Assembly (NCBI GenBank): GCA_947628955.1
Contig: CANRBX010000029.1
Span: 1-34,992 of the forward strand
Length of the DNA: 34,992 bases
Direction of reading: 5' to 3'
From: an uncultured Lachnospiraceae bacterium
GTDB taxonomy: Bacteria; Bacillota; Clostridia; Lachnospirales; Lachnospiraceae
Shown in pieces: positions 1-15,307 of the stretch. The translations under genes were made by a program, and so were the position numbers. Under the pieces are notes generated by a model. It was given only the letters and a program-made list of their open reading frames with translations. It made no database searches and was not told the origin of the DNA. Position 1 is the stretch's first letter, and every line of letters starts with the position of its first letter.

Positions 1-1
1 T

Positions 2-127
2 CTGGCGGGTTATCAAAATCCTATAGGTGTGGCAGATTGGAAAAATCAGATTGCACGCGCTTTGCCAGAAGAATTGAGAAGTAGTTTACCGACGGTTGAA
101 GAGATAGAAAGGGAATTAGAACAGTAA
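2..127 (+). CDS. C-terminal end of a YhcG/DUF1016-like PDDEXK nuclease (partial)
   Basis: Only the last 41 codons are inside the window; the frame is open from the left edge and ends in TAA-TAA. The visible tail contains PIGVADW, ALPEEL and LPTVEEIE, which match how proteins of the DUF1016 (YhcG, PDDEXK nuclease-like) family end: a PIGV segment, then LPEEL, then an LP..EE(I/L) acidic tail. Members of that family are accessory nucleases often found near defence or mobile genes, which fits the defence remnants 1 kb downstream. The catalytic domain is not visible, so the family call rests on this tail alone and could be wrong; a Rpn/PDDEXK transposase-type nuclease is the main alternative. Confidence 0.5.
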   Translation: MAGYQNPIGVADWKNQIARALPEELRSSLPTVEEIERELEQ

Positions 128-132
128 TAAAA

Positions 133-150
133 GTGCCACGCCCGTGGCAC
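133..150. terminator. Perfect 8-bp hairpin after the partial nuclease gene
   Basis: GTGCCACG (133-140) pairs with CGTGGCAC (143-150) across a 2-nt loop, six bases after the stop codons. No T-run follows on the plus strand, but an A-run precedes it, so the canonical U-tail is on the minus strand. It probably ends transcription or protects the 3' end of the upstream gene; its function is inferred from position only. Confidence 0.4.
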
Positions 151-245
151 AAACAAAAGAAAATACTATAAAGAAGAATGAAAAAGTTTAGCTTAAAATA
201 ATAAACTGAGAATTTAAATAAACCAGAGTTAGAGGAAATAATACT

Positions 246-317
246 ATGCAAACTGATAATGCAAATAAAAAAGAAATGACTGAAATTAAGGAAGTATTTT
301 TATCTGGCGAAATCTGA
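246..317 (+). CDS. Possible 23-aa small ORF, unrecognised
   Basis: ATG at 246 follows an AGAGGAAA ribosome-binding-like stretch (about 232-239) and the frame runs 23 codons to TGA at 315. The product starts MQTDNANKKEMTEIKEV and is hydrophilic and lysine/glutamate rich. It may be a genuine small peptide, or the N-terminal scrap of a truncated gene, since the surrounding DNA is rearranged. No family is recognised. An inverted repeat begins eight bases after its stop. Confidence 0.22.
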   Translation: MQTDNANKKEMTEIKEVFLSGEI

Positions 318-324
318 CGTAAAA

Positions 325-363
325 CTGTACAATTCTGAAGACCTTTGGGGAGTAATTGTACAG
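325..363. repeat. 10-bp perfect inverted repeat upstream of the response regulator
   Basis: CTGTACAATT (325-334) is repeated inverted as AATTGTACAG (354-363) around a 19-base spacer. The second arm ends about 30 bases before the regulator start region. There is no T-run after it, so it is not a typical terminator. It could be an operator for a dimeric regulator, an mRNA hairpin, or the scar of a small mobile element. Confidence 0.45.
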
Positions 364-394
364 CTGCGGCAGGGATCAGTGAGACAGAGGTGGA

Positions 395-1064
395 ATGACT
401 TATTTTTACAATTCTTGTACTTGAAGATGATTTAGAATTAAACCGCACGATTTGTACCGCTTTGCAAAAGGAAAATTATCGCGTTTACCATGCGTATACC
501 TGCAAAGACGGACAGCTTCTTGCAGCCGGTCATACATTTGACATGGTGATATTGGATGTAAATCTGCCCGACGGCGACGGATTTCAGTTTTGCAGATGGA
601 TCAAAGCACGGAGCAACAGCTCGGTCCTGTTTCTTTCCGCACGGGATTTAGAAGAAGATGTCCTGAGCGGTTATGAAACAGGGGCAGATGATTATGTGAC
701 AAAGCCTTTTTCCATGAAAGTTCTGTTAAAGAAAATTCCTGCCATTCTGTCAAGGGAAAGAAAGAAATCAGATATCTATGACGATGGATTTTTAAAAATA
801 GATTTTGAATTGGGCGCTGCACAGACCGGGGGAAATATCTGCCCTGTCACACCTACGGAATACCATATCCTGAAAAAACTGATCGAACATAAGGGACAGT
901 TATTAACCTATTCTGTTCTGCTGGATTCCCTGTGGGAAGACGGGATTCAGTTTATGGATAAGCACGTTCTTGCCGTTCATATCAACCGCCTGCGCAAAAA
1001 AATAGAAACAGAAGGGCATCATTATATTTCAAACGTATATGGAATGGGGTATGTATGGAAATAG
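395..1064 (+). CDS. OmpR/VanR-type response regulator with an apparent 1-nt frameshift at its start
   Basis: DNA-binding response regulator of a two-component system: an N-terminal receiver domain, with phospho-acceptor Asp in ILDVNLP and the conserved Lys in VTKPF, followed by a winged-helix DNA-binding domain (TPTEYHILKKL to GMGYVWK). The expected ATG at 395 follows AGAGGTGG, but it is one base out of frame with the rest: the in-frame segment reading ILVLEDDLELNR starts around 408 and has no ATG or GTG before a TGA at 396. Removing one T from the T5 run at 403-407 joins them into a normal N-terminus. Starting instead at TTG 462 would lose the acidic pair (EDD) needed for phosphorylation. 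Its partner kinase now lies 3.6 kb away at 4660. Either the gene is broken, or the T-run is a sequencing error or a slippery site. Confidence 0.72.
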
Positions 1065-1075
1065 TCTGTATCTTG
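1020..1075 (+). repeat. 56-bp direct repeat, left copy bounding the BREX/Septu insert
   Basis: Identical to 4625-4680. It spans the last 15 codons of the response regulator and the first seven codons of the histidine kinase, including the kinase ATG (1055 here, 4660 in the other copy). Beyond it, positions 1076-1096 still resemble 4681-4701 (13 of 21 bases match by eye), after which similarity stops. It marks the left junction of the inserted segment. Confidence 0.9.
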
Positions 1076-1195
1076 GCCATCCTGCCCGTGACCCGGAGCC
1101 TTTTAACGTCGTGCCCGGGACAGATTTATATACATGCCCGAAGTGGACTTGTACACTATACCGGAAGGCCTGCAAATAACGCAGTAGTTCTGTAA
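1055..1195 (+). pseudogene. Histidine-kinase start fused to an unrecognised 3' gene tail
   Basis: The duplicated kinase ATG at 1055 opens a 46-codon frame. It begins like the true kinase at 4660 (MEIVCIL), diverges after about 14 residues, and ends with IYIHARSGLVHYTGRP and a hydrophobic tail before TAA at 1193. The join shows that the left junction is not just the kinase cut in two: the kinase start is attached to the tail of some other gene. That tail is not recognised. It overlaps the regulator stop by 10 bases exactly as the original kinase start did, so it may still be translated, but probably has no function. Confidence 0.45.
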
Positions 1196-1213
1196 TGAAT
1201 TTGGTGGTAAACT

Positions 1214-1680
1214 ATAGTCAGCGGCAGCATTCTCCAGATTAATGATCCAATCTTGCTTGTCTATGCCGGCGGGGATTGGGATGCGTCAAAGTATACGACC
1301 TTCCAGCCGGACAAGGATGCCATCATTCCAATCTACTGGCTCTTTGACAGCGGCAAGAAGAACGGCTTCCAATGCCTGATCTATATGCACCGCTACCAGC
1401 CGGACACGATTGCCCGTATCCGCACAGACTACGTCCACGAGCAGCAGTCCCGGTATCGCACGGCCATTGCCGATCTGGAACAGCGCATCCATGGCGCGTC
1501 CGCTTCTGAACGGGTCAAACTGAACAAACAGCTCCAGAAGCTGCAGGCACAGGCTGAAGAAATCCGGGTTTATGAAGAAAAATCCATCATCTTGCTGATC
1601 AGATGATTAGCATTGATCTTGATGATGGGATAAAAGTGAATTATGCAAAATTTTAGGATGTGCTGGCAAAAATAAAGTAA
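1214..1680 (+). pseudogene. pglX: BREX type 1 adenine methyltransferase PglX, C-terminal remnant
   Basis: PglX is the BREX DNA methyltransferase that marks host DNA. Only pieces of its C-terminal part remain. The first frame (from about 1214) reads through GGDWDASKYTTFQPDKDAIIPI and then jumps directly into YWLFDSGKKNGF, a join that in intact PglX is separated by tens of residues, so an internal deletion has occurred. YMHRYQPDTIARIRTDYVHE and a coiled-coil-like stretch follow. At about 1575 an A-run one base too short shifts the frame; the shifted frame continues HHLADQMISIDLDDG, then hits TAG at 1654 and the natural-looking end LAKIK at 1680. The methyltransferase domain is absent, so the gene is dead. 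Confidence 0.82.
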
Positions 1681-1685
1681 GGTAC

Positions 1686-1760
1686 TTGTATACAAAAACA
1701 AGATTTTTTAGAATATTACCGATTGAAAAAGTATTTATTGGACCAGATATAGTATATAAT
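1686..1760 (+). promoter_or_regulatory. Candidate promoter(s) of ptuAB
   Basis: TTGTAT (1686-1691) and TAGAAT (1709-1714) are 17 bases apart, a good sigma-A-like match. The -35 lies within the palindrome TTGTATACAA (1686-1695), which could be an operator. A second TATAAT-like box sits at 1755-1760 without a clear -35. This 100-base AT-rich gap between the pglX remnant and ptuA would give the Septu pair its own transcription despite loss of the BREX operon. Confidence 0.4.
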
Positions 1761-1815
1761 CAAACCTATAGCAGAGCGAAATCTATTTCATTTGCAGATA
1801 AGGCGGTGTACAGGT

Positions 1816-3090
1816 ATGAATTTAGAGCATGTTTCAATTAAGAATTTCAAAGGCGTAGAGAATATGGAACTTGAATTTACGCCGGGGGTAAATTTGCTGA
1901 TTGGAGATAACGGAGTCGGGAAAACTTCTGTATTGGAAGCAATTGCAGTGGTTTTAGCAGGAATGTTAAAAGGGCTCAAAGGAGTGCCGACAAAAAACAT
2001 TCTGCAAAATGATATACGATTTACTCTGGATGAAACAGGAGACGCTTCAACCGGAGTACGTTACTGGTGCCCATCGGAGATTTCATGTACCATAAGAGAT
2101 AATGGTATGGAATATAATTTGCGGAAGTGGCGCGAGGACGAGGCCGGGAATACGAGGACAAAGACAGAGGATACCGGAATTGTGAAATGGATGCAAAAGC
2201 AATCCAATGATTTGAGTGCTGTACTGCCCTTGCTCTGTTTTCAAAGTGATGCGAGAGTATGGCAGATGCATCGCGGAGATTATGGAAAAGAATTGAGGAA
2301 AAAGTTAGATGATCGGCGTTGCGGCTATATTGGTTGTCTGGATTATTCGCTGGATATGAAAGGAATTCTGGCATGGTGCCTGAAAATGGAGTTCAGCGCC
2401 TTCCAGAAAAACCAAAAGATAAAAGAATATGAGGCATTTAAAATAATAGTGGCAGAATTTATGAGGAATATTGACGATTTGGATGCCGTGCCGGAAATCT
2501 ATTATTCCAGACAGTTAGATCAGATGGTCTATCGCGAAGGAAATCTGACGATGCCGATATCCGATCTGAGCGCCGGTTATCAGTCTCTGTTGTGGATCAT
2601 TATGAATCTGGCATACAGATTGGCATTACTGAATTCCGAAAAAGCCGGGGATTGGAAAAGGATGCCCGGGATTGTGTTGATCGATGAAATAGATATGCAT
2701 TTACATCCGAAGTGGCAATGGAATATTGTGAAGGCATTAGAAAAGACATTTCCGAGTATGCAGTTTATTTTAGCGACGCATTCTCCGATTGTGATTTCTT
2801 CCTGTAAGAACGAGCATCTTCTGAGAATCGATGAAGACCAGGAAGTGCTTTATCTGGAGGATGCTTATGGCTATTCGGTTCAGGATGTCCTTACTTTACG
2901 GCAGGGGACAACGGAAAAACCCAGAGAAGTGAAAGAACTGGATAGTTTATTTGAAAAAGCAATCAATCAAAACGATTGGAAGAAGGCAGATAGTGTTATC
3001 AGGGAAATGGAAAAGGTGTTAGGAGATAAGCATACGGATGTCCGTAGTGCAAAAGAAGAATTGGAGTTGAATCGTTGGATGGAGGATTAA
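1816..3090 (+). CDS. ptuA: Septu defence ATPase PtuA
   Basis: A 424-residue AAA/ABC-type ATPase with RecF/SMC-like architecture. Visible motifs are Walker A GDNGVGKTS (residues 30-38), an ABC-signature-like LSAGYQS, Walker B with the catalytic acid in VLIDEID followed by HLHPKWQW, and the switch histidine in LATHSP. The C-terminal 60 residues are charged and helical. ATG 1816 is preferred because AAGGCGG lies nine bases upstream; the TTG eight codons earlier has no such site. The stop abuts the ATG of the HNH nuclease gene. An ATPase followed directly by a TIGR02646-type HNH protein is the Septu arrangement, in which PtuA and PtuB form one complex and ATP binding or hydrolysis controls the nuclease. 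No reverse transcriptase is present, so this is stand-alone Septu, not a retron. All key residues are intact. Confidence 0.86.
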   Translation: MNLEHVSIKNFKGVENMELEFTPGVNLLIGDNGVGKTSVLEAIAVVLAGMLKGLKGVPTKNILQNDIRFTLDETGDASTGVRYWCPSEISCTIRDNGMEYNLRKWREDEAGNTRTKTEDTGIVKWMQKQSNDLSAVLPLLCFQSDARVWQMHRGDYGKELRKKLDDRRCGYIGCLDYSLDMKGILAWCLKMEFSAFQKNQKIKEYEAFKIIVAEFMRNIDDLDAVPEIYYSRQLDQMVYREGNLTMPISDLSAGYQSLLWIIMNLAYRLALLNSEKAGDWKRMPGIVLIDEIDMHLHPKWQWNIVKALEKTFPSMQFILATHSPIVISSCKNEHLLRIDEDQEVLYLEDAYGYSVQDVLTLRQGTTEKPREVKELDSLFEKAINQNDWKKADSVIREMEKVLGDKHTDVRSAKEELELNRWMED

Positions 3091-3837
3091 ATGCTGTATA
3101 TTGAGAAGAAATCGCCTCCCAGAGAAATGGTGCGTAAGGTAAGTGAAATAAAAAGCAGTCCTGGATGGAAAGCGATAAAAGATGGGAATACCAGTGCTAT
3201 CCGGAGTGAATTTGATAATCTTCCGAAAGATACGATACGGGAAAGTCTGCTTGAGGAACAGCATTATTTATGCGCGTACTGTATGCGGAAAATTCAAAAT
3301 AGCGGTCAGTCTACGTCGATTGAACATTGGTTTCCTTTGAGTAAAAATAAAGACCAGGCGTTGGATTACAGAAATATGCTGGCTGTCTGCGATGGAGGGG
3401 AGAATTGGAAGGGGAGTGGCAAAAAAATTTTATGCTGTGATGCCTGCAAAGCAGATGAAGTAAAATTGAACATTTCACCGCTGAATAAACAACAAATGGA
3501 TAAAATAGCATATGGCAAAGACGGTTTTATACATACAAACCCATATGACAAAAAAATGGAGGAGGACCTTCGGGATATTTTGCGTTTAAATGGTCTATGG
3601 AAGAAAGGTGAATTTGTCGCGGACACTTCTACCGAACTTATAAAGGGAAGAAAAGATACTTATCAGCTATATGAAAACTTTGTCAAGAGATTGGGTGAAG
3701 AGGGAAAATGCACTTCTTCCAGCATAAAGAAGATAATAGATAAAATACAAAATGCTGAGCATAGACCAGAATATGCAGGAGTACTTCTCTACTTTTTCAA
3801 TAAAAAGTATCAGTCGCTAGTAAAACGTGGGTTATAA
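3091..3837 (+). CDS. ptuB: Septu HNH endonuclease PtuB
   Basis: A 248-residue protein of the TIGR02646/PtuB type. The HNH core is visible: CAYC (Cys61 and Cys64), IEHWFP with Glu78-His79, YRN at 93-95, and further cysteines at 100, 114, 115 and 118 that probably bind structural zinc. It starts immediately after the ptuA stop with no gap, so the two are translationally coupled. In Septu, PtuB is the effector that cuts nucleic acid when the PtuA complex is triggered by phage. Reading frame, length and catalytic residues look complete. The 3' end runs within a few bases of the pglZ remnant, the other side of the original BREX accessory slot. Confidence 0.86.
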   Translation: MLYIEKKSPPREMVRKVSEIKSSPGWKAIKDGNTSAIRSEFDNLPKDTIRESLLEEQHYLCAYCMRKIQNSGQSTSIEHWFPLSKNKDQALDYRNMLAVCDGGENWKGSGKKILCCDACKADEVKLNISPLNKQQMDKIAYGKDGFIHTNPYDKKMEEDLRDILRLNGLWKKGEFVADTSTELIKGRKDTYQLYENFVKRLGEEGKCTSSSIKKIIDKIQNAEHRPEYAGVLLYFFNKKYQSLVKRGL

Positions 3838-3844
3838 ATCGTAT

Positions 3845-4584
3845 ATGAACAATGCAAAGCTGGGTGCGCTCACCGGCGCCAACAACTTCTTTGTAAAGAA
3901 GCTGCTGGCGGTGGATGATCCCACCAGCAACTATCTGGTGTATCGGCCTTTCGCCTACGAGTCCGACGAGGACAACTGGCTGCTGGATGTGGAGCTATAT
4001 GCGGGAGAGCCATTCCGTGCTGATTTGGTTTCCATGTGATGGAAAAGGTCGAAGGGCTCTATACCATCTGGTTTCTCGGCCAGCTGGGCAGCAACTGGTC
4101 AGATGCCTGCGCGGACAACCTGCGCGAGTATGGCCGGGTGCTGGAAGTACCGCAGCAGACAGATTTTTACCGTCGGCGGGTGGCATCTTCTGACAGCAAG
4201 GTATATGTGATCATCTCCGACGCTTTGCGGTACGAGGTAGCGGCTGCCCTCGCGGAGCAGCTGCAGCGGGAGACGCAGGCCAGGGTGGATCTGAAATCCA
4301 TGCAGGCGGTGTTCCCGACCATTACGAAGTTTGGTATGGCCGCACTGCTGCCGCACAAAGCACTCTCAGTTGAACTGAGAACCGGTAAAACGGATCGACT
4401 GGCGGTACTGGCAGACGGACAATCCACGGAGGCCAACAATCGTGATAAGCTCCTGAAGGCAGCTGACAGGGCCAGCGCAGCTCTCAAGTATAAGGACATC
4501 ATTGACATGAAGCGTGCCGACCGGCAGGCACTCATCAAGGGCATGAATAAGGTTAGGTATACCGGCAAAAATAGAGCGGGGTGA
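3845..4584 (+). pseudogene. pglZ: BREX type 1 PglZ phosphatase-like protein, remnant
   Basis: PglZ is the alkaline-phosphatase-superfamily core protein of BREX. Two pieces are left. The first (3845-4039) contains VYRPFAYESDEDNWLLDVEL, typical of the N-terminal region, and stops at TGA 4037. The second, in another frame (4036-4584), begins VEGLYTIWFLGQLGSNWSD and includes YVIISDALRYEV, the metal-binding core, plus ELRTGKTDRLAVLADGQST. Several hundred residues between the pieces are missing, and the end is cut after ALIKGM, before the conserved histidine-rich phosphatase motif that should follow. It cannot encode a working PglZ. It has the same higher GC as the pglX remnant, unlike ptuAB. Confidence 0.84.
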
Positions 4585-4624
4585 TTGATGATGAGAATTC
4601 GAAAAGTACGAACATGATTTAAAC

Positions 4625-4680
4625 CATTATATTTCAAACGTATATGGAATGGGGTATGTATGGAAATAGTCTGTATCTTG
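4625..4680 (+). repeat. 56-bp direct repeat, right copy
   Basis: Identical to 1020-1075. It carries a useless copy of the regulator C-terminus (ending GYVWK) and the real histidine kinase start at 4660, so it is the right edge of the inserted block. See the left copy for the comparison of flanks. Confidence 0.9.
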
Positions 4681-5580
4681 ATGATCCTGCTGCTGACGGG
4701 TATCGTTTTCTGCCTTTTATGGAAAAATCATTGCCTGAAACGGGACATTTATGATTTCACAGGAAAATTAGAAGTTTGCCTGAAAGAATTATTAAATGGT
4801 GAAAAGCCGGACAGGGCAGAGTACGGGCAGGATGATTTATGGGGTAAGGTATACGACAGATTATGCCGTATTTCTGATCTGTATATGCACAGAAGTCAGG
4901 AACTATATGAGGAAAAGGAAAATTTAAAGGAGCTGGTATCCGATACATCCCATCAGGCTAAGACCCCTCTTGCAAATATTAAGCTGTATCAGGAATTGCT
5001 TTCGGATGAAACAAATGCAGCAGAAAGTGCGGAATATTTAACCAGGATGGGCAGGCAGGTGGATAAACTGGACTTCCTTCTTCAAAGCATGGTAAAAATT
5101 TCGAGGCTGGAAACCGGAACAATTAAAATTGCAAAATCAGAATATCCCATATCAGAAACCCTTGCGCTGGCAGTCGCGGCAGTCGTTCCAAAAGCAGACC
5201 AGAAAAACATTCAGATTCATGTCGCATATGATGAAGCGCTCCGATTGGAGCATGACAAAAAGTGGACAGCGGAAGCGGTTTTTAATGTCCTCGACAATGC
5301 AGTCAAATATACAGATGAAAACGGGAATATCGATATTTCTGTACAGCAGGAAGAGATTTTTACAAGGATCAGTATTACAGATACCGGAAAAGGGATTCCC
5401 CCGGAAAGGCAGGGAAGTATCTTTAAGCGGTTTTACCGCGAGCCGGAAGTTCACGATGCGGAGGGCGTCGGCATTGGCCTGTATCTGGCGCGAAAAATCA
5501 TATCCATGCAAAACGGCTACATAAAAGTGGAATCAGAAACAGGGAAAGGAAGCACCTTCCATATTTACCTGCCAAATTAA
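4660..5580 (+). CDS. Sensor histidine kinase (VanS/VncS-like)
   Basis: A 306-residue membrane kinase with a single N-terminal transmembrane segment (about residues 3-21) and no sizeable extracellular domain, typical of intramembrane-sensing kinases paired with ABC exporters. The H-box SHQAKTP has the phospho-accepting His98. The ATP-binding part shows the N-box NVLDNAVKY, G1 DTGKGIP and G2 GVGIGLYLARK. The start is the ATG inside the 56-bp repeat, which in the uninterrupted ancestor overlapped the regulator stop by 10 bases. The insertion has separated it from its regulator gene, so it now depends on a promoter in the insert or on read-through. The ABC exporter genes downstream are its likely output. 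Confidence 0.88.
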   Translation: MEIVCILMILLLTGIVFCLLWKNHCLKRDIYDFTGKLEVCLKELLNGEKPDRAEYGQDDLWGKVYDRLCRISDLYMHRSQELYEEKENLKELVSDTSHQAKTPLANIKLYQELLSDETNAAESAEYLTRMGRQVDKLDFLLQSMVKISRLETGTIKIAKSEYPISETLALAVAAVVPKADQKNIQIHVAYDEALRLEHDKKWTAEAVFNVLDNAVKYTDENGNIDISVQQEEIFTRISITDTGKGIPPERQGSIFKRFYREPEVHDAEGVGIGLYLARKIISMQNGYIKVESETGKGSTFHIYLPN

Positions 5581-5589
5581 AACGTGTGG

Positions 5590-5620
5590 AAAAATCACAA
5601 TTTTGTGATTTTTTCTTTTT
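5590..5620 (+). terminator. Rho-independent terminator after the histidine kinase
   Basis: An 11-bp perfect AT-rich stem (AAAAATCACAA 5590-5600 with its complement 5603-5613) ends in a T-rich tract to 5620. It lies ten bases after the kinase stop, separating kinase and ABC transporter transcription. Confidence 0.65.
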
Positions 5621-5657
5621 GTGAACGGTTTGTGATTTTCCTGTTTTATGGTAAATA
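5602..5657 (+). promoter_or_regulatory. Candidate regulator-binding repeats and promoter of the ABC exporter
   Basis: TTTGTGA occurs three times in the same direction, at 5602-5608, 5618-5624 and 5629-5635. The last two are 11 bases apart, the spacing at which OmpR-family regulators bind direct repeats. TTGTGA (5630-5635) and TAAATA (5652-5657), 16 bases apart, make a plausible weak promoter, so the regulator would sit right at the -35. The first copy lies inside the terminator stem. Binding is an inference. Confidence 0.4.
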
Positions 5658-5743
5658 TCGAGGAAAGCACCGATGACGCCGGTGTAAGGCGGTGTTTGAC
5701 GAGAAAACTCATCGAGATGATAACGGGGAAAGGATGGATTCTT

Positions 5744-6421
5744 ATGGAAAACACAATCGTGAAAACAAAAGCTTTATCAAAACATTATCATGTCGGCACG
5801 CATACGGTGATTGCTCTGGATGGAGTGGATTTTGAAGTAAAAGAGCGGGAATTTGTTTCGATTATCGGGAAGTCCGGCTGCGGAAAAAGCACTCTTTTGC
5901 ATATGATCGGCGGACTGGACCGGCCTACTTCCGGAACAGTGATCGTAGACGGCATGGACCTTTCAAAGATGAAGGAAGAACAGCTTGCTCTTTTCAGGAG
6001 AAGAAAAGCAGGATTCATTTTTCAGCAGTATAATCTGATCCCGGATCTGAATGTCTATGACAATATCACGTTTCCGCTGGAGCTTGACGGGACTGTCGTC
6101 GACAGAGAATTTATTCAGGAATTGGTGGATACGCTTCATATTGCGGATAAACTGGAAATGTTTCCATCCATGCTCTCAGGCGGAGAGCAGCAGCGGGCCG
6201 CCATTGCGAGGGCTCTGGCAATGAAACCGGCGATCATTCTTGCCGATGAGCCGACAGGGAATCTTGACACCTCCGCCAGCCATGATGTCATAGGACTTTT
6301 AAAAGTGGTCGCGGAAAAATATCAGCAGACGTTGATCGTGATCACCCATGATCTGGATATTGCACAGATGGCGGACAGGACAGTCCGGCTGCAGGACGGA
6401 AAAATACTGAGGGGAAAGTGA
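5744..6421 (+). CDS. ABC transporter ATP-binding protein (MacB/LolD/BceA type)
   Basis: A 225-residue ABC ATPase with Walker A GKSGCGKST, Q-loop FIFQQYNL, signature LSGGEQQR, Walker B ILADEPTGNLD and switch His in VITHD. This is the subfamily that pairs with FtsX-type permeases rather than import permeases. ATG 5744 is chosen because AAAGGA lies about nine bases upstream and the conserved N-terminus begins there; the longer open frame back to 5648 overlaps the promoter region. It precedes the permease by 48 bases and forms its energy-supplying partner. With the upstream kinase it matches peptide/bacitracin-type resistance modules. Confidence 0.92.
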   Translation: MENTIVKTKALSKHYHVGTHTVIALDGVDFEVKEREFVSIIGKSGCGKSTLLHMIGGLDRPTSGTVIVDGMDLSKMKEEQLALFRRRKAGFIFQQYNLIPDLNVYDNITFPLELDGTVVDREFIQELVDTLHIADKLEMFPSMLSGGEQQRAAIARALAMKPAIILADEPTGNLDTSASHDVIGLLKVVAEKYQQTLIVITHDLDIAQMADRTVRLQDGKILRGK

Positions 6422-6486
6422 TTCTTATGCTGGCAAACAACAAAAAATATGGAGAGGAAAGGGATTCTTATGCTGGCGAACAATAA
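6420..6486 (+). repeat. Tandem duplication of the permease start, creating a 19-aa upstream ORF
   Basis: GATTCTTATGCTGGCRAACAA occurs at 6420 and again at 6463, 43 bases apart. The first copy gives an ATG at 6427 whose frame runs 19 codons (MLANNKKYGEERDSYAGEQ) to TAA at 6484, ending 14 bases past the real permease ATG at 6470. The short frame is read through the permease ribosome binding site (GGAGAGGAAAGGG, 6451-6463). It could couple or dampen permease translation. Confidence 0.6.
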
Positions 6487-9067
6487 TCGTTCCGTGACAA
6501 ACAGACTTGCTGAAAATACCGTGCGGAAAAATAAGCGGCAGTTTTTGATCCTGTTCCTTACGATCCTGCTGTCCTCTTTTATGCTCTTTTCCATTTTTAC
6601 GATCGGACTGACCTACCTGGATCTGAGCAGGCTGCAGAATACCCGGTTGTATGGTTCAGAATATGACATTGCCGTTATGAATGGATTTACGGAGGATCAG
6701 AAGGAGATTCTTCTCCGCCATGCCGGGATAGAAAGTGTCGGTGAACTGGCGTACTGCGGGACTGTAAAAAGTTCTGATTCGGACCGCACCGTCAATGCCG
6801 GTTTCTTATGGGGAGATAATACGTACTGGGAGAGTCAGAAAGCGCCGGCAGTAACGGAAATGAAGGGGCGCTATCCGCAGGCCCGAAATGAATTATTGGC
6901 CACAGAAGAGGTTCTGGAAGCCTGCGGGAAACGTTCTTTGTCCGTTGGCGGCCGCCTTTCTCTGACTTATGAAGATCATGCAGGCATTCATGCGGCGGAT
7001 TTTGTGATCAGCGGGATCTGGAAAGGGTACGGCGGGGATAAGGCGAACTTCTATGTCTCAGAGGATTTTTATGAACAGACAGGTTATGACCTGAAATCCG
7101 GCGGGATCCTGCAGGTGAAGTTTAAAAGCAGCTGCGTGACCGGAAAAACGATTGAAAATTTAAGAGAAAGTCTGGGATTATCATCGGCACAGGTTTTTCA
7201 GGCTTCGGAATACATCGAAAGATCGCTGACCATATTATTGGCGGTACTGGGACTGTGCTTTATGATCTGCCTCAGCGCTTATCTGCTGATCTACAATATC
7301 CTTTACCTGTCGGTTTCCGGAAAGATCCGGTACTACGGCCTGCTGCAGACACTGGGCATGACCAAAAGACAATTAGTTCGGCTGATCCGCAAACAGATAT
7401 GGATGGTTGCTGTGACAGGAATCATGGCGGGCATTGTCCTGGGGATATCCGTTTCCCTGCTTCTTGTGCCGTATGCCGTGAAGGTTTTGGGAATTTCCCT
7501 GGGAAATACAGGCTTATGTTTCTATCCGGAAGTGCTGGCGTTAAGTATTTTTGTTACAGTACTTGCAGTCGTATGCGGGGTCCGGAAACCGGTTCATATT
7601 GCTGCAGGCGTAACGCCGGTAGAAGCTGTAAAATACCGGGGGAATATGGAATTTCCCCATGCAGAGAAAAACAGACAGAAACAAAAAAAGGAAAGGGGCA
7701 GTCTGTACTGGCGGATGGCAGAAGGCCAGCTGAAAAACAATAGAAAGAGAACGGCGGTTGTTTTTCTGTCCCTTGCAGCGAGTCTGATCGTATTTTTCTG
7801 TCTGACTACGCTGATTGACAGTCAGGGCAGGCGAACCGTATACCCGAATTATTGGGATGCAGATTTTATCGTACATAACGCTGCACAGACAACAGAGGAT
7901 ATTGCCTCCCTGCAGCCGGCAATCGATGATGCTTTCCTGTCAGACATACAGGAGACAGATGGCGTGGCGGAGGTTCATGCGGTAAAGGGGATTCCGGTTA
8001 TTTTTCCCTATGAGGAAAATGGTTTTTCGGATTTCTGGATAAAGGGCTGTACAGAAATGAAGCCGTATCTGACATACTCTGACACGGCTGCAGAGTATCA
8101 GCAAAATCCTGAGAAATACTATGGAATGATCAAAGGGATTGACGAGTCAGAATTTGACTATTTGAACGAAAGCCTCGGCGGCATCATAGACCGGCAGGAA
8201 TTTTTATGCGGCAAAACGGCGATATTGCAGTATGCCGGGTTTGAAATACCTTCAAAATGGATTGGAAACAGCATTTCATTTCGGTTGCCCGCAGGAGCGT
8301 CTTCACTCCGTTTCGGTCGGCGCTTAACGTGCGCCACTGGCGCACAGCGCCCCGTAATTCATGCCCCTGCGGGGCGGGGAAACAGCTTCGCTGTTTTGCA
8401 GGAAATTACGATCGGGGCGGTCAGCTATGAAGATTATTACGGGGCAACCGTAAATTGCGGGGCAAATCTGATCGTAAGTGAAAGCTATCTGGAATCATTG
8501 ACCTCCAGGCCATATGTTTTGAGCCTGAATATTAAATATAAGCGTTCCTGCGATGCCGGGACAGAAGAAGAGATCAAAAATATCATAAAATCGAACCCAT
8601 ACGATAATGACTTGCTTTTTATTTCAAAATACGACGATATGAAAACGATCCGGGATTCGCAGAGCGGTATGTTTGAAACAGGTACGGTCATTTCCCTTCT
8701 TCTGTTGCTGGTGGGGATGCTGAACTACATCAATACGATGGCAAACAGTATGCAGAACAGAAAGCTGACTTTTTCAATCATGGAAAGCGTCGGTATGTCC
8801 AGGAAACAGATAAAAAAATTATTGATCCATGAAGGGATGTTATATGCAGGCGGCTCTGTTTTTATTACTTTAACGATCGGGACGGGTATTACCTGGTTTA
8901 TTTTTCAGTCCATGAATTATATGAAGATTCCATTTAGCATACCTGTGCTTCCGCTGCTGTGTGCGATATTGCTTGTCGTGATAATCTGTGTTTTAACACC
9001 GATCGTTACTTACAAGAGGACAGTGCGAAACCGGCCGGTCACAGAACGCCTGCGGGAATATGAGTAG
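6470..9067 (+). CDS. FtsX-family ABC transporter permease carrying an in-frame inserted repeat
   Basis: An 865-residue permease built of two FtsX-type halves: an N-terminal membrane segment (FLILFLTILLSSFMLFSIF), an extracellular domain, three membrane segments, then a second set starting at NNRKRTAVVFLSLAASLIVF with another large outer domain and three C-terminal helices. It exports or senses hydrophobic or peptide substrates with the upstream ATPase, probably for antimicrobial resistance. ATG 6470 follows GGAGAGGAAAGGG; the ATG at 6449 lies within that site. In the second outer domain, residues encoded by about 8285-8405 are arginine/proline rich and unlike their surroundings (for example RFGRRLTCATGAQRPVIHA). 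They correspond exactly to a palindromic DNA repeat element, which keeps the frame open. Confidence 0.87.
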   Translation: MLANNNRSVTNRLAENTVRKNKRQFLILFLTILLSSFMLFSIFTIGLTYLDLSRLQNTRLYGSEYDIAVMNGFTEDQKEILLRHAGIESVGELAYCGTVKSSDSDRTVNAGFLWGDNTYWESQKAPAVTEMKGRYPQARNELLATEEVLEACGKRSLSVGGRLSLTYEDHAGIHAADFVISGIWKGYGGDKANFYVSEDFYEQTGYDLKSGGILQVKFKSSCVTGKTIENLRESLGLSSAQVFQASEYIERSLTILLAVLGLCFMICLSAYLLIYNILYLSVSGKIRYYGLLQTLGMTKRQLVRLIRKQIWMVAVTGIMAGIVLGISVSLLLVPYAVKVLGISLGNTGLCFYPEVLALSIFVTVLAVVCGVRKPVHIAAGVTPVEAVKYRGNMEFPHAEKNRQKQKKERGSLYWRMAEGQLKNNRKRTAVVFLSLAASLIVFFCLTTLIDSQGRRTVYPNYWDADFIVHNAAQTTEDIASLQPAIDDAFLSDIQETDGVAEVHAVKGIPVIFPYEENGFSDFWIKGCTEMKPYLTYSDTAAEYQQNPEKYYGMIKGIDESEFDYLNESLGGIIDRQEFLCGKTAILQYAGFEIPSKWIGNSISFRLPAGASSLRFGRRLTCATGAQRPVIHAPAGRGNSFAVLQEITIGAVSYEDYYGATVNCGANLIVSESYLESLTSRPYVLSLNIKYKRSCDAGTEEEIKNIIKSNPYDNDLLFISKYDDMKTIRDSQSGMFETGTVISLLLLLVGMLNYINTMANSMQNRKLTFSIMESVGMSRKQIKKLLIHEGMLYAGGSVFITLTIGTGITWFIFQSMNYMKIPFSIPVLPLLCAILLVVIICVLTPIVTYKRTVRNRPVTERLREYE
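8285..8410. repeat. Multi-hairpin palindromic repeat element inserted in frame
   Basis: A GC-rich block inside the permease gene contains consecutive hairpins: GTGCGCC/GGCGCAC with a 3-nt loop (8329-8345), GCCCC/GGGGC with a 3-nt loop (8363-8375), and AAACAGC/GCTGTTT with a 3-nt loop (8380-8396). The last two are enclosed by an inverted repeat CGTAATT (8353-8359) and AATTACG (8404-8410). Base composition and encoded residues differ sharply from the flanks. This is the look of a small non-autonomous palindromic element (REP/RPE-like). Exact ends are uncertain. Confidence 0.65.
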
Positions 9068-9234
9068 ATCATGGCCATGAGCCATGTCCGCCATATCCGG
9101 GAAAATCGGGGATGATTCCAGCCATCCGGTCTGATTAGCAGGGGGCACTTTTATAATCTGCCATTGGTTAAAAAAAGAATATTGCGAACTGTGACGGCAC
9201 GGCAGAATTTGTCGATTCTGTTTTTATCATGCTT

Positions 9235-10023
9235 TCATGCTGTATGATTTTTCTGATTCATTTCATCGACAAAGGAAGCACTCTTTGCCGTCATCTCAAC
9301 CCATGCGGGGCGAAAGCCGCTTCTGACGGCGTTCCGGACGGATCTGATATTTGACCACGCGGCGCAGTAGAAAGGCACTTTTTCCCGCTCCAGTATTTCA
9401 AGCGCCAGATGGCTGGTGAGCGCGGAGGCAATGCCCTGTCTGCGGCAGGCGGGAAGTACATCCACGCCGATCTGCCACATGGTTTCGCAATCGGCGGAAC
9501 ACGCAGCAAGGCCGACCAGAGTCCGGCCGTCGTATGCTCCGACGCCTAAAATGTCCAGTTCCCGCCGCTTTTCACACAGTGCGTTGCTCCACTGCGGCGT
9601 GTAGAGCGCCTGAAAATCTTCCGGGTGCAGCACTCTCAGTTCGTAAGGACAGTCCAGAACTTTAAGCTCGCTGAGGTCAGGCAGAAAGTATTCCGCCATG
9701 AAGCAGATCCGCAGGCCATCCTTTTGCAGCTCATCGTTCAGAACATGCAGATTCGGCGTCTCAAAGCAATGTTCGGCCGGAAAGCTGTTGATATATTCTG
9801 AGACGATGGGACGGTACTTTTCGTTTATGGAGGCGACGATATTGTTTCCATAAAAAATCAGATTGCAGTCCAGCGGGAGCGACAGATATTTTCTGGCGCC
9901 GGGATTTGCGGCTGACGTCACGATCACATTTTCCGACTGCAGAAAGTCTTCCGCAGCACAATTTGCATCCACTGCGGACTGTTCCAGTGCAGTGCGCAGG
10001 ATACTGTCATTTGTAAAATACAT
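9235..10023 (-). CDS. GNAT-family N-acetyltransferase
   Basis: A 262-residue protein with a C-terminal GNAT fold: the acetyl-CoA-binding motif A appears as IGVDVLPACRRQGIASAL, preceded by a beta strand LVGLAACSA and followed by the late strand region PFYCAAWSNIRSVRNAVRSGFRP. The first 120 residues form a separate N-terminal part typical of the two-domain GNAT proteins that act on small molecules or amines; the substrate is unknown. ATG at 10023 follows GGAGGGA. It runs opposite to its neighbours and lies downstream of a broken flavodoxin-like gene on the same strand, with which it may once have formed an operon. Confidence 0.85.
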   Translation of the reverse strand: MYFTNDSILRTALEQSAVDANCAAEDFLQSENVIVTSAANPGARKYLSLPLDCNLIFYGNNIVASINEKYRPIVSEYINSFPAEHCFETPNLHVLNDELQKDGLRICFMAEYFLPDLSELKVLDCPYELRVLHPEDFQALYTPQWSNALCEKRRELDILGVGAYDGRTLVGLAACSADCETMWQIGVDVLPACRRQGIASALTSHLALEILEREKVPFYCAAWSNIRSVRNAVRSGFRPAWVEMTAKSASFVDEMNQKNHTA

Positions 10024-10485: not shown

Positions 10486-10853
10486 ATGGAAGTTAAAATG
10501 AATAAGGAAATCAGGGATTACCAGGAATCCATGTTTTTCGGCCTGAATTTCCGGCAGTGTGCTTTTTCTGTGCTGGTTATCCTGTGTGCGGTAGGAGTTT
10601 ATTTTGTGTCAAAAGGACGCGCTCTAGACAGCATCCGAGAAAGCTGTCTTTCCAGCCGGAGAGCCTGTACTATGCCTGCCTAGAGGAAAAAATACAGGAA
10701 GGCGGGAGGAAAGCATGGAAAGACAAGAAAAAAGTACGCACGAAGCAGCAGAAAAAGCGGAAAAACAGAAAGGCCGCACATAGCACAGGGGCGAGCCCGG
10801 CAGGACAGGCGGGCGACGTCCGGACAAAGGCAGAGAAGGAGGGATGCTATTGA
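10486..10853 (+). pseudogene. prgI: PrgI-type conjugation protein with internal deletion and frameshift
   Basis: PrgI-family proteins are small two-helix membrane proteins of Gram-positive conjugation machines, encoded just before virB4. ATG 10486 has AGGAGG eight bases upstream, overlapping the virB6 remnant stop. The first part, MNKEIRDYQESMFFGLNFRQCAFSVL..., is the conserved start and first membrane helix. Around 10610-10640 the frame breaks; the other frame continues KLSFQPESLYYACLEE, the conserved C-terminal region, and ends at TGA 10851 overlapping virB4. Roughly 50 residues in the middle, including the second membrane helix, are missing. The gene cannot make a normal PrgI. Confidence 0.72.
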
Positions 10854-13195
10854 TTAGGACACTACAGCAGGCTATGAAGATGGACAGGGAACGGTTCAAG
10901 GTTCCCAGATCTGTCCAGCAGGCTATCCCCATCCAGAAAATATGGCTGGATGGAATTTTCCAGGTGGGTAATAAATTCTCTAAATCGTTCTGGTTCTCGG
11001 ATATCAATTATTCCATAGCGAGCAAAGAGGATAAGACGGAAATGTTTCTTGATTATTCCGAGCTGCTTAATGCATTGGATTCTGGCACCTCTGCCAAGAT
11101 CACGCTTAATAACCGCAGGATTAATAAAGAAGAATTTGAACATTCCCTGCTTTTGCCGATGAAAAGAGATGGCTTAGACCACTACCGGGAGGAATATAAC
11201 AGGATGCTGCTATCCAAGATCAGCGGCACCAGCAACAGCATTTACAGGGAGCGTTACCTGACCATCAGTGTCCATAAGAAAGGCATTGATGATGCGCGGA
11301 CATATTTTGCGCGTGTTGGGACGGACATTATTACCCATCTGGGAAAACTGTCTTCCAAAGCGGAGGAACTGGATGCAAAGGAGCGGCTGCAGGTGTTCCG
11401 GGACTTTTTCAAAACGGGACAGGCGACCGCTTTTCCGTTTGATATGAAGGAGTCTGCCCGCAAGGGACACAGCTTCAAAGACTGGATTTGTCCGCAGTCC
11501 ATGGAATTCTCAAATGACTGTTTTAAGATAGATGGGCGGTATGGCCGGGTACTGTACATGCAGGATTATGCCAGCTATGTGAAGGATGACATGGTATCGG
11601 AACTATGCGACCTGAGCCGGGATCTGATGCTGTCGATTGATATCCTGCCTGTTCCAACGGATGAGGCAGTGCGTGAGATCCAGAACAGGCTGCTCGGCGT
11701 TGAAACGAATGTGACCAATTGGCAGAGGCGCCAAAACGCGAACAATAATTTTTCTGCCACTGTCCCCTATGATATGGAGCTGCAGAGGCAGGAAACAAAG
11801 GAAATGCTGAACGACCTGACGACAAGAGATCAGAGGATGATGTTTGGACTCCTAACGGTCGTGCACGTCGCTGACAGCAGGAAACAGCTTGATTCGGATA
11901 CCGAGACGTTGTTAAGCATAGCACGGAAGCACCTGTGCCAGATGTCTGTGCTCAAATGGCAGCAGGCAGACGGGCTGGATACAGTATTGCCATATGGCCT
12001 GCGAAAAATCCAGGCGCTAAGGACACTGACAACAGAATCCACAGCGGTGCTGATCCCGTTTCACGCGCAGGAGATTATGCATCCGGGCGGTGTATATTAT
12101 GGACAGAATGCGGTCAGCAGGAACATGATCGTGGTAGACCGCAGGAAACTGCTGAATGGAAACTCGTTCCGGCTTGGCGTAAGCGGCTCTGGAAAAAGCT
12201 TCTCTGCGAAAGAAGAGATCGTTGCCATCGCGCTTTCTACGGATGACGATATCCTGATCCTTGATCTGGAGTCAGAATTCTCCTCACTGGTCGAGGCGCT
12301 GAACGGGGAAGTGATCTCCATATCCGCGACATCGGATACACATCTGAATGCGCTCGACATGGATGCAGCGTATGGGAATGAACGGAACCCATTGGTGGAA
12401 AAGTCTGAATTCATCCTGTCGCTTTTCGAACAGCTCGTGGGGGCAGGGAACCTCTCCGCGAAAGAAAAATCTATCCTGGATCGCTACACTGCTGATGTCT
12501 ATCGGGACTATATCCGGAGCGGATATACCAGGCAGGTGCCGACACTCAAGGATCTGTACCGTGAGCTGATGCTCCAGATGGAAGATGAAGCAAGGGGCCT
12601 CGCCCCGTCTTCGGAGCTGTTTATCAACGGTAGTCTCAATACATTCGCACAATACACAAATGTTAATACGAAGAGCCGGATCATTGGGTATGACATCCGG
12701 GAGCTCGGCGAACAGCTCATGCCGCTTGGGATGCTGGTTACTCTGGACTCGATCTTCAACCGCGTCATCCAGAACTGGAGACGTGGGAAAACAACATGGA
12801 TCTTTGCAGATGAGTTTTATTTGCTGTTCCGTTACCAGTACAGCGCAGACTTCTTCTACCGGCTCTACAAGCGGATCAGGAAATATTCGGGATTCGTAAC
12901 CGGGTTGACACAAAACGTGGTGGAATTGCTGCGGTCAGATACCGCGCGCCTGATGTTGGCGAACAGTGAGTTTTTGATCCTCTTGAACCAGGCGAGCACG
13001 GATCAGGAAGAACTGGCTGGACTTTTAAACATTTCAGACAACCAGCTGTCTTATATCACAAATGTGGGGGCCGGCCACGGGCTCATCCGCTGTTCCGGAA
13101 CGATAGCACCTTTTGAAAATACGTTCCCGAAAGATACGGCATTGTACCGTCTGATGACAGCCAAGCCGGGTGAGGTCAGGGTGCCAGGGGTATAG
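10844..13195 (+). CDS. VirB4-like conjugal transfer ATPase (CD1110 family)
   Basis: A 783-residue ATPase that powers type IV secretion in conjugation. Walker A GVSGSGKS lies at residues 445-452, followed by the family's FSAKEE segment; ILDLESEFSSL follows about 25 residues later, and the Walker B region WIFADEFYLLF is near residue 650. The N-terminal half (SVQQAIPIQKIWLDGIFQVG...) matches the VirB4 CD1110 subfamily start. Length and motifs are complete and no lesion was seen. It overlaps the broken prgI end by 10 bases. With prgI, virB6 and the relaxase genes gone, it has no transfer apparatus here, although it could serve a related element in trans. Confidence 0.88.
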   Translation: MLLIRTLQQAMKMDRERFKVPRSVQQAIPIQKIWLDGIFQVGNKFSKSFWFSDINYSIASKEDKTEMFLDYSELLNALDSGTSAKITLNNRRINKEEFEHSLLLPMKRDGLDHYREEYNRMLLSKISGTSNSIYRERYLTISVHKKGIDDARTYFARVGTDIITHLGKLSSKAEELDAKERLQVFRDFFKTGQATAFPFDMKESARKGHSFKDWICPQSMEFSNDCFKIDGRYGRVLYMQDYASYVKDDMVSELCDLSRDLMLSIDILPVPTDEAVREIQNRLLGVETNVTNWQRRQNANNNFSATVPYDMELQRQETKEMLNDLTTRDQRMMFGLLTVVHVADSRKQLDSDTETLLSIARKHLCQMSVLKWQQADGLDTVLPYGLRKIQALRTLTTESTAVLIPFHAQEIMHPGGVYYGQNAVSRNMIVVDRRKLLNGNSFRLGVSGSGKSFSAKEEIVAIALSTDDDILILDLESEFSSLVEALNGEVISISATSDTHLNALDMDAAYGNERNPLVEKSEFILSLFEQLVGAGNLSAKEKSILDRYTADVYRDYIRSGYTRQVPTLKDLYRELMLQMEDEARGLAPSSELFINGSLNTFAQYTNVNTKSRIIGYDIRELGEQLMPLGMLVTLDSIFNRVIQNWRRGKTTWIFADEFYLLFRYQYSADFFYRLYKRIRKYSGFVTGLTQNVVELLRSDTARLMLANSEFLILLNQASTDQEELAGLLNISDNQLSYITNVGAGHGLIRCSGTIAPFENTFPKDTALYRLMTAKPGEVRVPGV

Positions 13196-13223
13196 TCCTT
13201 TAAGTAAGGGCGGCTGGAAAGAA

Positions 13224-13245
13224 TGGGAGGGTGCGTACCCTCCCA
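13224..13245 (+). promoter_or_regulatory. 9-bp hairpin upstream of the cell-wall hydrolase gene
   Basis: TGGGAGGGT (13224-13232) pairs with ACCCTCCCA (13237-13245) over a 4-nt loop. No T-run follows. The CCTCC in its right arm is also complementary to the AGGAGG ribosome binding site at 13255-13260, so two alternative foldings are possible, one hiding that site. Regulation is a conjecture; it may simply stabilise or process the transcript. Confidence 0.35.
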
Positions 13246-13266
13246 GGCACAGGCAGGAGGTGAGCA

Positions 13267-13753
13267 ATGAAAGATATCAAAGTGAAAGAACGCAATAGCT
13301 CCCCCCAGAATCCGGAGCGCTGCAGTGCGGATGCCGAAGGAACTGGTGAAATCTGCTGTGCTTACGCAGAAAGAAAAACCGCATCAGATCTCGCGTGAAA
13401 CAGATATTTATGAGACGCAAAGTTCCCCGACGGAATATGCGTCTAAAAAACTGAAAACTGGAGAGCGACGTATATTTGCCGGGGCAGGCTCTGCGGGAAA
13501 AAGCGGGGTGAGGGTAGGCAGGGCGGCTGTCAATCGCATCCGTGAGAGAAAGATGGAGCAGGAACCGGAAAAACGGCAGGCATGAGAGAAACCGGCCCAG
13601 AAACAGGGGACAGAAAAACAACCAGTAAGCAGCCGGGAAAAAGAAACAAAACCGGGAAAGGCTAATGCCCGCCAGGAAGCAGCGAAAAAATCGTATATAA
13701 AAACAAAAGAACAGGAGCGCATTAGAAAGACGGAAGAATCTGCCAGAGAAGAA
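13267..13753 (+). pseudogene. 5' part of the CD1108-type hydrolase gene: frameshifted and interrupted by a stop
   Basis: ATG 13267 with AGGAGG upstream opens MKDIKVKERNSS, the usual start of CD1108-family mobile-element proteins. A C6 run at 13301-13306 puts the next conserved piece, MPKELVKSAVLTQKEK, one frame away; five Cs would make them continuous. The second frame then meets TGA at 13583 (after KRQA), yet continues beyond it in the same frame with KPAQKQGTEKQPVSS straight into the downstream ORF. So two separate lesions interrupt an otherwise readable charged N-terminal region of about 160 residues. Confidence 0.65.
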
Positions 13754-15307
13754 ATGGAGCGGAACCGGGAGGCAGGCGGCATCCCTGACCATCCATCCCG
13801 AACATCGGTGGAGGGAACGGGGCCAGCTGATAGGCCAAAACAGATACATAAAGATACGCGGGGGATAAAGGATCAGAGCAGGGGAAATGGACAGGCTGGA
13901 GGACGGCAGAGGGCTGTGCCCGGCCGGGCGCAGCACCGGCAGATCAAGATGAAGCCGGAGAATGGACGCAATGTACGGGTTTCGGGACAAACAGGGCAGG
14001 TAAAGGATGCCCGCGCATTAAGGGTTCCATTGGAATTTGGAGAAAAAATCAAAGGGATAAATACAGGGAAAGACCCAGTGCGCAGTGTGGCTATGAAACA
14101 TGGGCGGGCAGTCCGCGCGGCGAAAAGAGTGGGAGTCAGGAAGCAGGTCCGGATGGCTGAACAGGTGGTTGCGGGTTATGCACAGAAAGCGGCGCAGACT
14201 GCGAAGAGGACGGCAGGAACCGCCCGCAGATTTATAGTTGCAGCAGAAAAATCTCTCACAGCGGCAAAAGCGGTTGGTATGATGGTTGGTGCAGTCGGCG
14301 GCATAGGAATGCTGATGCTGATTGTTACGGTTGGCGTTATCGGCGGCGTGTTTTCTACAAGCACGTCACAGAACACTGCGCCATTGAGCACAGAAGTATT
14401 GTCTTACACGGCAGCGATTGAAAAGTATGCTGCGGAATATGGAATACCAGAATATGTCCCGGTGATCCAGGCGATCATGATGCAGGAATCCGCAGGGAGA
14501 GGGACAGACCCAATGCAGTGCAGCGAGTGCCCGTATAACACCAGGTATCCCAATGTGCCGGGGGCAATTACGGATCCGGAGTATTCAATCCAAGTCGGTA
14601 TCCGGTACTACGTGGATTGTATCCGGGAGGCCGGCTGTACAGGTCCGCAGGATCTCGACCGGTTGAAATTGTCCCTGCAGGGATATAATTATGGGAATGG
14701 ATATATTACATGGGCGATTAGGAACTTTGGGGGTTACAGTGAAGCGAATGCATTGCAATTTTCCCAGGAGCAGGCGGCCGCACACGGCTGGGCGGCATAC
14801 GGTGACCCGCAGTATGTCCAGCATGTCCTGCAGTATTATTCCGGTGGAAACTTCTTTGCAGGGCTATTTGGGAATGGGCAGATCGTATCCGTTGCCCTGT
14901 CACAGCTTGGGAATGTCGGTGGGCAGAAATTCTGGTCGTGGTATGGTTTTGGAAGCAAGGTATCATGGTGTGCCTGTTTTGCATCCTGGTGCGCAGACCA
15001 GTGCGGACTGATTGAAAGGGGAGCAGTACCAAGATTTTCACTTTGCGATGATGGCATTGCTTGGTTCAAGGCCCAGGGACGCTGGCAAGGCGGCAACTTT
15101 ACGCCATCCGCAGGAACGCTTATCTTTTTTGACTGGCCGGGTGAGACTGGAGCAAGGGATGGCAGCAGTGATCACGTAGGGATCGTAGAAAAGTGTGAAA
15201 ATGGAGTGGTCTATACCGTGGAAGGAAATTCGAGCGATGCTGTAAGGCAGAACAGCTATCCGGTAGGCTATGCGTCCATTATGGGATATGGACTGATAGC
15301 ATATTAG
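13754..15307 (+). CDS. CD1108-family conjugation cell-wall hydrolase (lysozyme-like plus CHAP-type peptidase), 3' part
   Basis: Two-domain muralytic protein used by conjugative elements to open peptidoglycan for the transfer channel. From ATG 13754: a basic, glutamine-rich region, a membrane segment at about residues 174-200, a lysozyme/SLT-like domain (about 215-365; catalytic Glu245 in QESAGRG), and a C-terminal amidase or endopeptidase domain with nucleophile Cys406 in SWCACF and His474 in DHVGIV. The domains are intact. The natural start was at 13267 and the 5' part is damaged, so any product would have to begin internally, for example at 13754, though no good ribosome binding site is visible there. 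Confidence 0.78.
   Translation: MERNREAGGIPDHPSRTSVEGTGPADRPKQIHKDTRGIKDQSRGNGQAGGRQRAVPGRAQHRQIKMKPENGRNVRVSGQTGQVKDARALRVPLEFGEKIKGINTGKDPVRSVAMKHGRAVRAAKRVGVRKQVRMAEQVVAGYAQKAAQTAKRTAGTARRFIVAAEKSLTAAKAVGMMVGAVGGIGMLMLIVTVGVIGGVFSTSTSQNTAPLSTEVLSYTAAIEKYAAEYGIPEYVPVIQAIMMQESAGRGTDPMQCSECPYNTRYPNVPGAITDPEYSIQVGIRYYVDCIREAGCTGPQDLDRLKLSLQGYNYGNGYITWAIRNFGGYSEANALQFSQEQAAAHGWAAYGDPQYVQHVLQYYSGGNFFAGLFGNGQIVSVALSQLGNVGGQKFWSWYGFGSKVSWCACFASWCADQCGLIERGAVPRFSLCDDGIAWFKAQGRWQGGNFTPSAGTLIFFDWPGETGARDGSSDHVGIVEKCENGVVYTVEGNSSDAVRQNSYPVGYASIMGYGLIAY

Follow-up and report, generated by a model that had tools for sequence, protein, structure and literature searches.

Septu type I systems pair an ATPase, PtuA, with an HNH nuclease, PtuB, and the two proteins reportedly form an oligomer. 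In the Septu system EcB88, mutation of the Walker or HNH residues abolishes defence, and tRNA-Tyr is cleaved (PMC13096335). The PtuAB proteins of retron-Eco7 also degrade tRNA-Tyr, and nicked DNA is named there, by citation, as the target of a different Septu (PMC11555353); PtuC defines Septu type II (PMC8565338). Loci of BREX, a larger anti-phage system, and loci related to them also contain ATPases of the OLD-ABC class paired with HNH or other nucleases. Non-TOPRIM OLD-ABC pairings were reported for 594 taxa, and the pairs embedded in BREX have been interpreted as a layer of backup effectors (PMC12839542). Here, we describe a segment (positions 1076–4624) of a contig of 34,992 bases from an uncultured Lachnospiraceae bacterium, in which a ptuA-ptuB pair lies between broken copies of the BREX genes pglX and pglZ. 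The window analyzed is this entire contig (C29), and the source assembly comprises 3.5 Mb in 136 contigs. With a probability of about 80%, we take the segment to be a recent insertion that derives, in truncated form, from a BREX type 1 locus with a Septu type I passenger between pglX and pglZ; its BREX part is dead, and ptuAB, which is complete, most likely works as a stand-alone system.

The ptuAB Pair and Its BREX Flanks

ptuA (1816–3090, plus strand; 424 amino acids) matches the PADLOC PtuA profile PDLC00298 over positions 1–420 of 423 (E = 9.2e-140), and ptuB (3091–3837, plus strand; 248 amino acids) matches the PtuB profile PDLC00322 over positions 1–212 of 215 (E = 7e-43). Both frames contain a stop codon at their end only, and that of ptuA directly adjoins the ATG of ptuB with no gap. 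K36 and D290 of PtuA belong to the Walker A and Walker B motifs, and H79 and N95 of PtuB form the HNH pair. The spacing of 16 between H79 and N95 equals that of H75 and N91 in Septu EcB88 (PMC13096335). PtuA resembles the solved PtuA structure 8ee4 along residues 1–416 (E = 1.6e-32). A preliminary description of this locus, made from the sequence alone, had proposed an intact Septu pair that keeps its motifs and a zero-gap junction, and in these respects it was correct; neither gene is truncated. In another locus, L044, the HNH histidine of ptuB (11279–12019) is replaced by D, and the other eight aligned sequences keep it.

The pair was also said to possess its own candidate promoter, a claim that did not hold: a sigma-70 consensus scan of positions 900–4800 gave no plus-strand site upstream of ptuA, and its total of six sites was lower than the mean in shuffled sequences (8.5, SD 3.3). 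Since the pglX-ptuA intergenic stretch (1681–1815, plus strand) is 93% conserved with L040, an intact relative discussed below, there is still room for a promoter that departs from the consensus.

Both proteins also match the retron profiles ATPase_I-A and HNH_I-A of PADLOC, but more weakly. Unlike retron I-A, the segment holds no recognized reverse transcriptase, the family search covering its sense-strand genes and pieces among the listed open reading frames (ORFs). A retron was rejected as a candidate; Rfam, which contains described families only, gave no match for the segment, nor any in L009, L040, or L041. With a full-length ATPase and HNH nuclease encoded by abutting genes, Walker and HNH motifs, and no recognized reverse transcriptase, the pair has the features of Septu type I and differs in its setting, a regulator/kinase operon in which scars of BREX genes flank it. 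By analogy with the family, PtuA would act as an OLD/Rad50-like ABC ATPase that holds PtuB in check until a phage trigger is sensed, whereupon the HNH nuclease would cut nucleic acid and phage growth would stop. The nucleic acid might be tRNA, which one studied Septu cleaves, or phage DNA, as reported for another.

The flanking genes are recognizable but wrecked, as the preliminary description had stated. The pglX scar (1253–1680, plus strand) is a 3′ part that matches the PglX profile with E = 4.6e-35; it is truncated on its 5′ side and carries an internal deletion of ∼200 bp, a frameshift, and a stop. What is left corresponds to model positions 943–968 and 1036–1120, with 1120–1144 in another frame. 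The pglZ scar (3838–4548, plus strand) joins residues ∼45–107 to ∼412–583 and has lost its 3′ end, and its pieces match the PglZ profile with E = 5e-56 and 1.6e-19 (model positions 45–107 and 413–583). In both scars, the internal deletions sit at short similar stretches, and the terminal truncations lie toward the ends of the segment. The pglX and pglZ pieces match the profiles of BREX type 1, but the full-length pglX and pglZ that this type requires are present only as fragments. At E ≤ 0.001, the entire source assembly contains no BrxC and no other PglZ, and beyond the scar its only PglX match is a distant one (26%) on contig C89. DNA similarity to brxC, brxL, and part of brxB of L040 was absent from positions 1–9500 of the window, and no genome-wide search was made for brxA, brxB, and brxL.

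The BREX ancestry of the segment is evident from L040. A scan of genome contigs for PtuA gave 39 pattern matches, from which 25 loci were confirmed. One of them, L040, in a metagenome-assembled genome of an uncultured Lachnospiraceae (isolate Lapin-001, the name presumably pointing to a rabbit), is the kind of locus that the preliminary description had suggested looking for: a complete BREX type 1 system, with brxA, brxB, brxC, pglX, pglZ, and brxL near full length and ptuAB between pglX (1177 amino acids) and pglZ (866 amino acids). Its DNA is 92.8% identical to positions 1327–3943 and 4032–4548 of the window and 86% and 77.5% identical over two short stretches. Between ptuB and the intact pglZ, a second pglZ survives in L040 as a diverged relic (12034–12249; profile E = 1.5e-9). 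The junction of ptuB with this relic is common to both loci, and the 5′ end of the pglZ scar in the window is shared with the relic; beyond the junction, the window sequence is closer to the intact pglZ of L040. Recombination of the relic with the gene would give this pattern. That Septu inserted on its own next to some unrelated fragment of pglX/pglZ was rejected, because the junctions recur in L040, where BREX is intact.

In eight chosen BREX loci, pglX and pglZ are separated by 16, 24, 26, 360, 1094, 1249, 2428, and 2768 bp, and the gap in L040, of ∼2.4 kb, contains ptuAB; it is a variable passenger site. The change of base composition at the edges of ptuAB, noted in the preliminary description, is present (GC 0.418 in ptuA and 0.384 in ptuB, 0.537 in the pglX piece and 0.557 in the pglZ piece). 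The same step occurs in intact L040 (0.41, 0.38, 0.49, and 0.53 for ptuA, ptuB, pglX, and pglZ), and composition therefore informs on the origin of the passenger, not on decay. L040 resembles the embedded OLD-ABC and HNH dyads described previously in having such a pair in BREX type 1, whereas in the window the pair remains and the BREX core is gone; the word Septu does not occur in that paper (PMC12839542). No report of a passenger left behind after loss of the BREX core was found in a mostly open-access literature, which is weak evidence of novelty. Additional genes of L040 (4053–6304 and 16978–18777) include an IS110-like transposase, assigned by eye, and two genes assigned by Pfam: DUF1883-TIR, ahead of pglX, and GmrSD-like, beyond brxL.

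Reduced BREX Loci in a Related Genome

Two further reduced loci, L041 and L104, were found on different contigs of G345, a single genome from the same genus whose contigs are the same as those of G337. Among the remaining 24 ptuA loci, L041 has a pglZ scar. Its ptuAB pair is intact (amino acid identities of 93% and 85%) and is followed by a stretch resembling pglZ residues 1–15, whose score was reached by none of 5000 mononucleotide shuffles and by one of 140 windows of the locus, possibly the same stretch. A second stretch resembles residues 67–76, with 1 of 5000 shuffles reaching its score. No direct repeat was found flanking ptuAB in the L041 stretch. The genes on either side, named by eye from ORFs, are the tail of a 23S rRNA methyltransferase-like gene and an alpha-galactosidase-like gene. 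The site was considered as a candidate defence hotspot and the idea set aside; in one relative, G333, different genes occur there at a comparable spacing, and by eye they look methyltransferase- and acetyltransferase-like.

L104 (4900–12400) contains the tail of brxC with a stop, the pair IetA and IetS, pglX, the pair HEC-02A/B, and a scar of the pglZ start. Model positions 5–40 of pglX are joined to 829–1152, and the two passenger pairs, ietAS and HEC-02A/B, look intact. None of 5000 shuffles reached the score of the pglZ scar, which is below that of L041. No further similarity to pglZ, brxA, brxB, or brxL was found in the L104 stretch, and PglZ is absent from the genome that holds both loci at E ≤ 0.001. 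The same passengers occupy the same positions beside a full-length pglX in two other loci: L111 has brxC (incomplete because the extracted stretch ends within it), ietAS, and pglX, with no PglZ similarity from pglX to the contig end, and L112 has part of brxB, brxC, pglX, HEC-02A/B, pglZ, and brxL. The genes that flank L104 are −20 to 131 bp apart in six relatives compared with ∼7.1 kb in L104. An imperfect 19-nt direct repeat (84%), derived from the end of the upstream gene, marks the edges of L104 (5064–5082 and 12149–12167), with a third partial copy inside.

The recurrence of reduction in two more loci suggests that passengers can be separated in function from BREX and can survive its loss, and this repetition, more than the single case, gives the finding its interest. 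A pair that persists without BREX is a natural experiment on whether such a pair needs BREX at all. Such loci also illustrate a route by which small defence systems could spread, carried within a large one and released on its decay. A wider proposal, which we regard as doubtful, is that BREX may serve as a carrier of self-sufficient defence pairs in gut Lachnospiraceae, its core being lost repeatedly while ptuAB, ietAS, or HEC-02 stay behind as small cassettes, some flanked by repeats, that could enter a new BREX. The second pglZ relic of L040 would then be the trace of an earlier round.

Insertion at a Regulator-Kinase Junction

An exact direct repeat of 56 bp, missed in the preliminary description, surrounds the segment (1020–1075 and 4625–4680, both plus strand). 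It consists of the end of a response regulator gene and the start of a histidine kinase gene, and its copies show 0 differences in 56 positions (95% bound 5.2%). The regulator gene upstream (462–1064, plus strand, coordinates of the listed ORF; Pfam Response_reg and Trans_reg_C) is 84%–88% identical in DNA to close relatives, and the kinase gene (4660–5580, plus strand; Pfam HisKA and HATPase_c) follows downstream. The regulator has no in-frame ATG near its expected start (388–470), and the relative G029 is similar there.

By match coordinates, the regulator and kinase genes are uninterrupted at at least eight loci in at least 7 of the 47 genomes of the genus, the source genome included among the 47 (G335, with two loci, G338, G341, G329, G340, G331, and G334). 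G029 adds one site, giving at least nine loci in at least eight genomes, and in the more distant G028 the two genes are contiguous too. The junction was read as sequence in five of seven loci (G029, G028, G335, G341, and G340); the pattern missed G329, where the two genes overlap in the ORF list, and G334. The remaining genomes of the genus, with no regulator-kinase pair among the matches listed, are uninformative. The segment is, over its full length, inserted at the regulator-kinase junction. A recurrent integration hotspot at the conserved motif of the regulator end is unsupported: of 397 genomes, 7 carry the motif, and the source genome alone has it twice.

How the segment came to this site bears on the claim that the passenger outlived its host locus. 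The pair was nested in BREX type 1, as in L040, and is now without it, and to that extent the claim stands; because the segment interrupts an unrelated operon and has repeats on both sides, decay in place cannot be told from capture of a fragment. One serious possibility, somewhat short of an even chance, is that the junction received an entire BREX island through site-specific recombination, with the 56-bp repeat as attachment core, and that the island was reduced there afterward. Direct repeats at both ends and an uninterrupted site in relatives are signs of a site-specific element. Inside both repeats lie stretches without BREX similarity (177 bases at 1076–1252 and 76 bases at 4549–4624, neither assigned to a strand) that would be the old ends of the island. 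L104, with its own edge repeats and with flanks contiguous or nearly so in six relatives, fits as well, although its edge repeats are only a suggestion of a mechanism common to the two loci. However, no integrase was recognized in 1076–4624, where the family search covered sense-strand genes and pieces, and no relative with a full island at the junction appeared among the matches listed. The left end, too, lacks matches: in 299 genomes, a query of window positions 1040–1260 matched in its repeat part only, and the short ORF of this end matched nothing but its own genome among 200.

Alternatively, the fragment may have been truncated elsewhere and then captured at the junction, with duplication of the 56 bp. 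This account, which we hold possible but tentative, is in keeping with the cuts of pglX and pglZ, which face the insertion ends, and with the identity of the repeat copies, which may mean that insertion came after the divergence from L040 (ptuA dS 0.21). Gene conversion or constraint could equally have held the copies identical, however, and to our knowledge a target duplication of 56 bp exceeds that of any transposition.

Carriage by phages or plasmids found no support. Among viral contigs, three pattern matches to PtuA gave no confirmed relative, and the peptide pattern of the left end, an exact 24-mer of the same end, and an exact 26-mer of the right end were all absent; in the genomes, the right end was queried only within longer queries. 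Eight plasmid records each matched the pglX stretch only, and a portion of ptuA was matched at 66% by one of three records from a phage collection, the other two matching the pglX stretch.

Selection, Assembly, and Neighboring Genes

Several observations weigh against the favored reading. In comparison with L040, dN/dS is 0.094 for ptuA and 0.141 for ptuB, values that in themselves speak for the favored reading, but it is also low in the scars (0.171 for the middle piece of pglZ and 0.03 for the pglX piece, where dS is much higher at 0.685). The dN/dS comparison proposed in the preliminary description hence does not separate passenger from scar and was rejected as proof of selection on ptuAB after decay. 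Amino acid changes, polarized with outgroups into window-derived and L040-derived, numbered 3 and 7 in the middle piece of pglZ (4 unclear), 3 and 4 in its N-terminal piece (1 unclear), and 2 and 2 in the pglX piece, as compared with 7 and 9 in PtuA (3 unclear) and 3 and 8 in PtuB (3 unclear). Since the scars show no excess of change, decay is recent, and they are too young for relaxed selection to register; the low values of ptuAB are mostly inherited. PtuB matches solved structures weakly (E = 7.7e-4), and 23 of the 25 ptuA loci have no trace of BREX in the available flanks, some of which are short. In profile searches without restriction, the pglZ scar of L041 gives a weak match (E = 0.38) and that of L104 goes undetected at E ≤ 1; each depends on the shuffle test, which was restricted by position. 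The source assembly is fragmented (completeness 93.8%, contamination 6.2%), and the repeat length of 56 is k + 1 for an assembler run with k = 55, a default setting, so that the junctions could be artefactual. On balance, the observation made in the preliminary description is confirmed and its interpretation, right in the main, is supported in part: the insertion context is added to it, and the argument from selection is withdrawn for this locus.

The recency of decay also allows that ptuAB is itself inactive or on its way there, at an earlier stage than the scars, little time having elapsed; the failure of the sigma-70 scan to find a promoter agrees with this. We consider it unlikely, as ∼2.0 kb of ptuAB contain 0 lesions and ∼1.1 kb of scars contain several, a contrast for which the finding was picked, and as the L041 pair is intact though almost no BREX is left beside it. 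That contigs were joined through a shared 55- or 56-mer is very unlikely even for a window that is one whole contig of such an assembly, because the join would still require reads placing each segment end beside the repeat and the junction of ptuB with the pglZ relic is shared with another assembly.

Outside the inserted segment, the start of the contig (2–124) may encode the tail of a YhcG-type nuclease, the Pfam match (E = 0.022) being below the cut-off. Downstream of the operon of regulator, kinase, and ABC transporter, positions 10844–16399 encode, by Pfam, a TraG-like ATPase, a lysozyme-CHAP protein, and a serine resolvase, and this region may be the remnant of a conjugative element.

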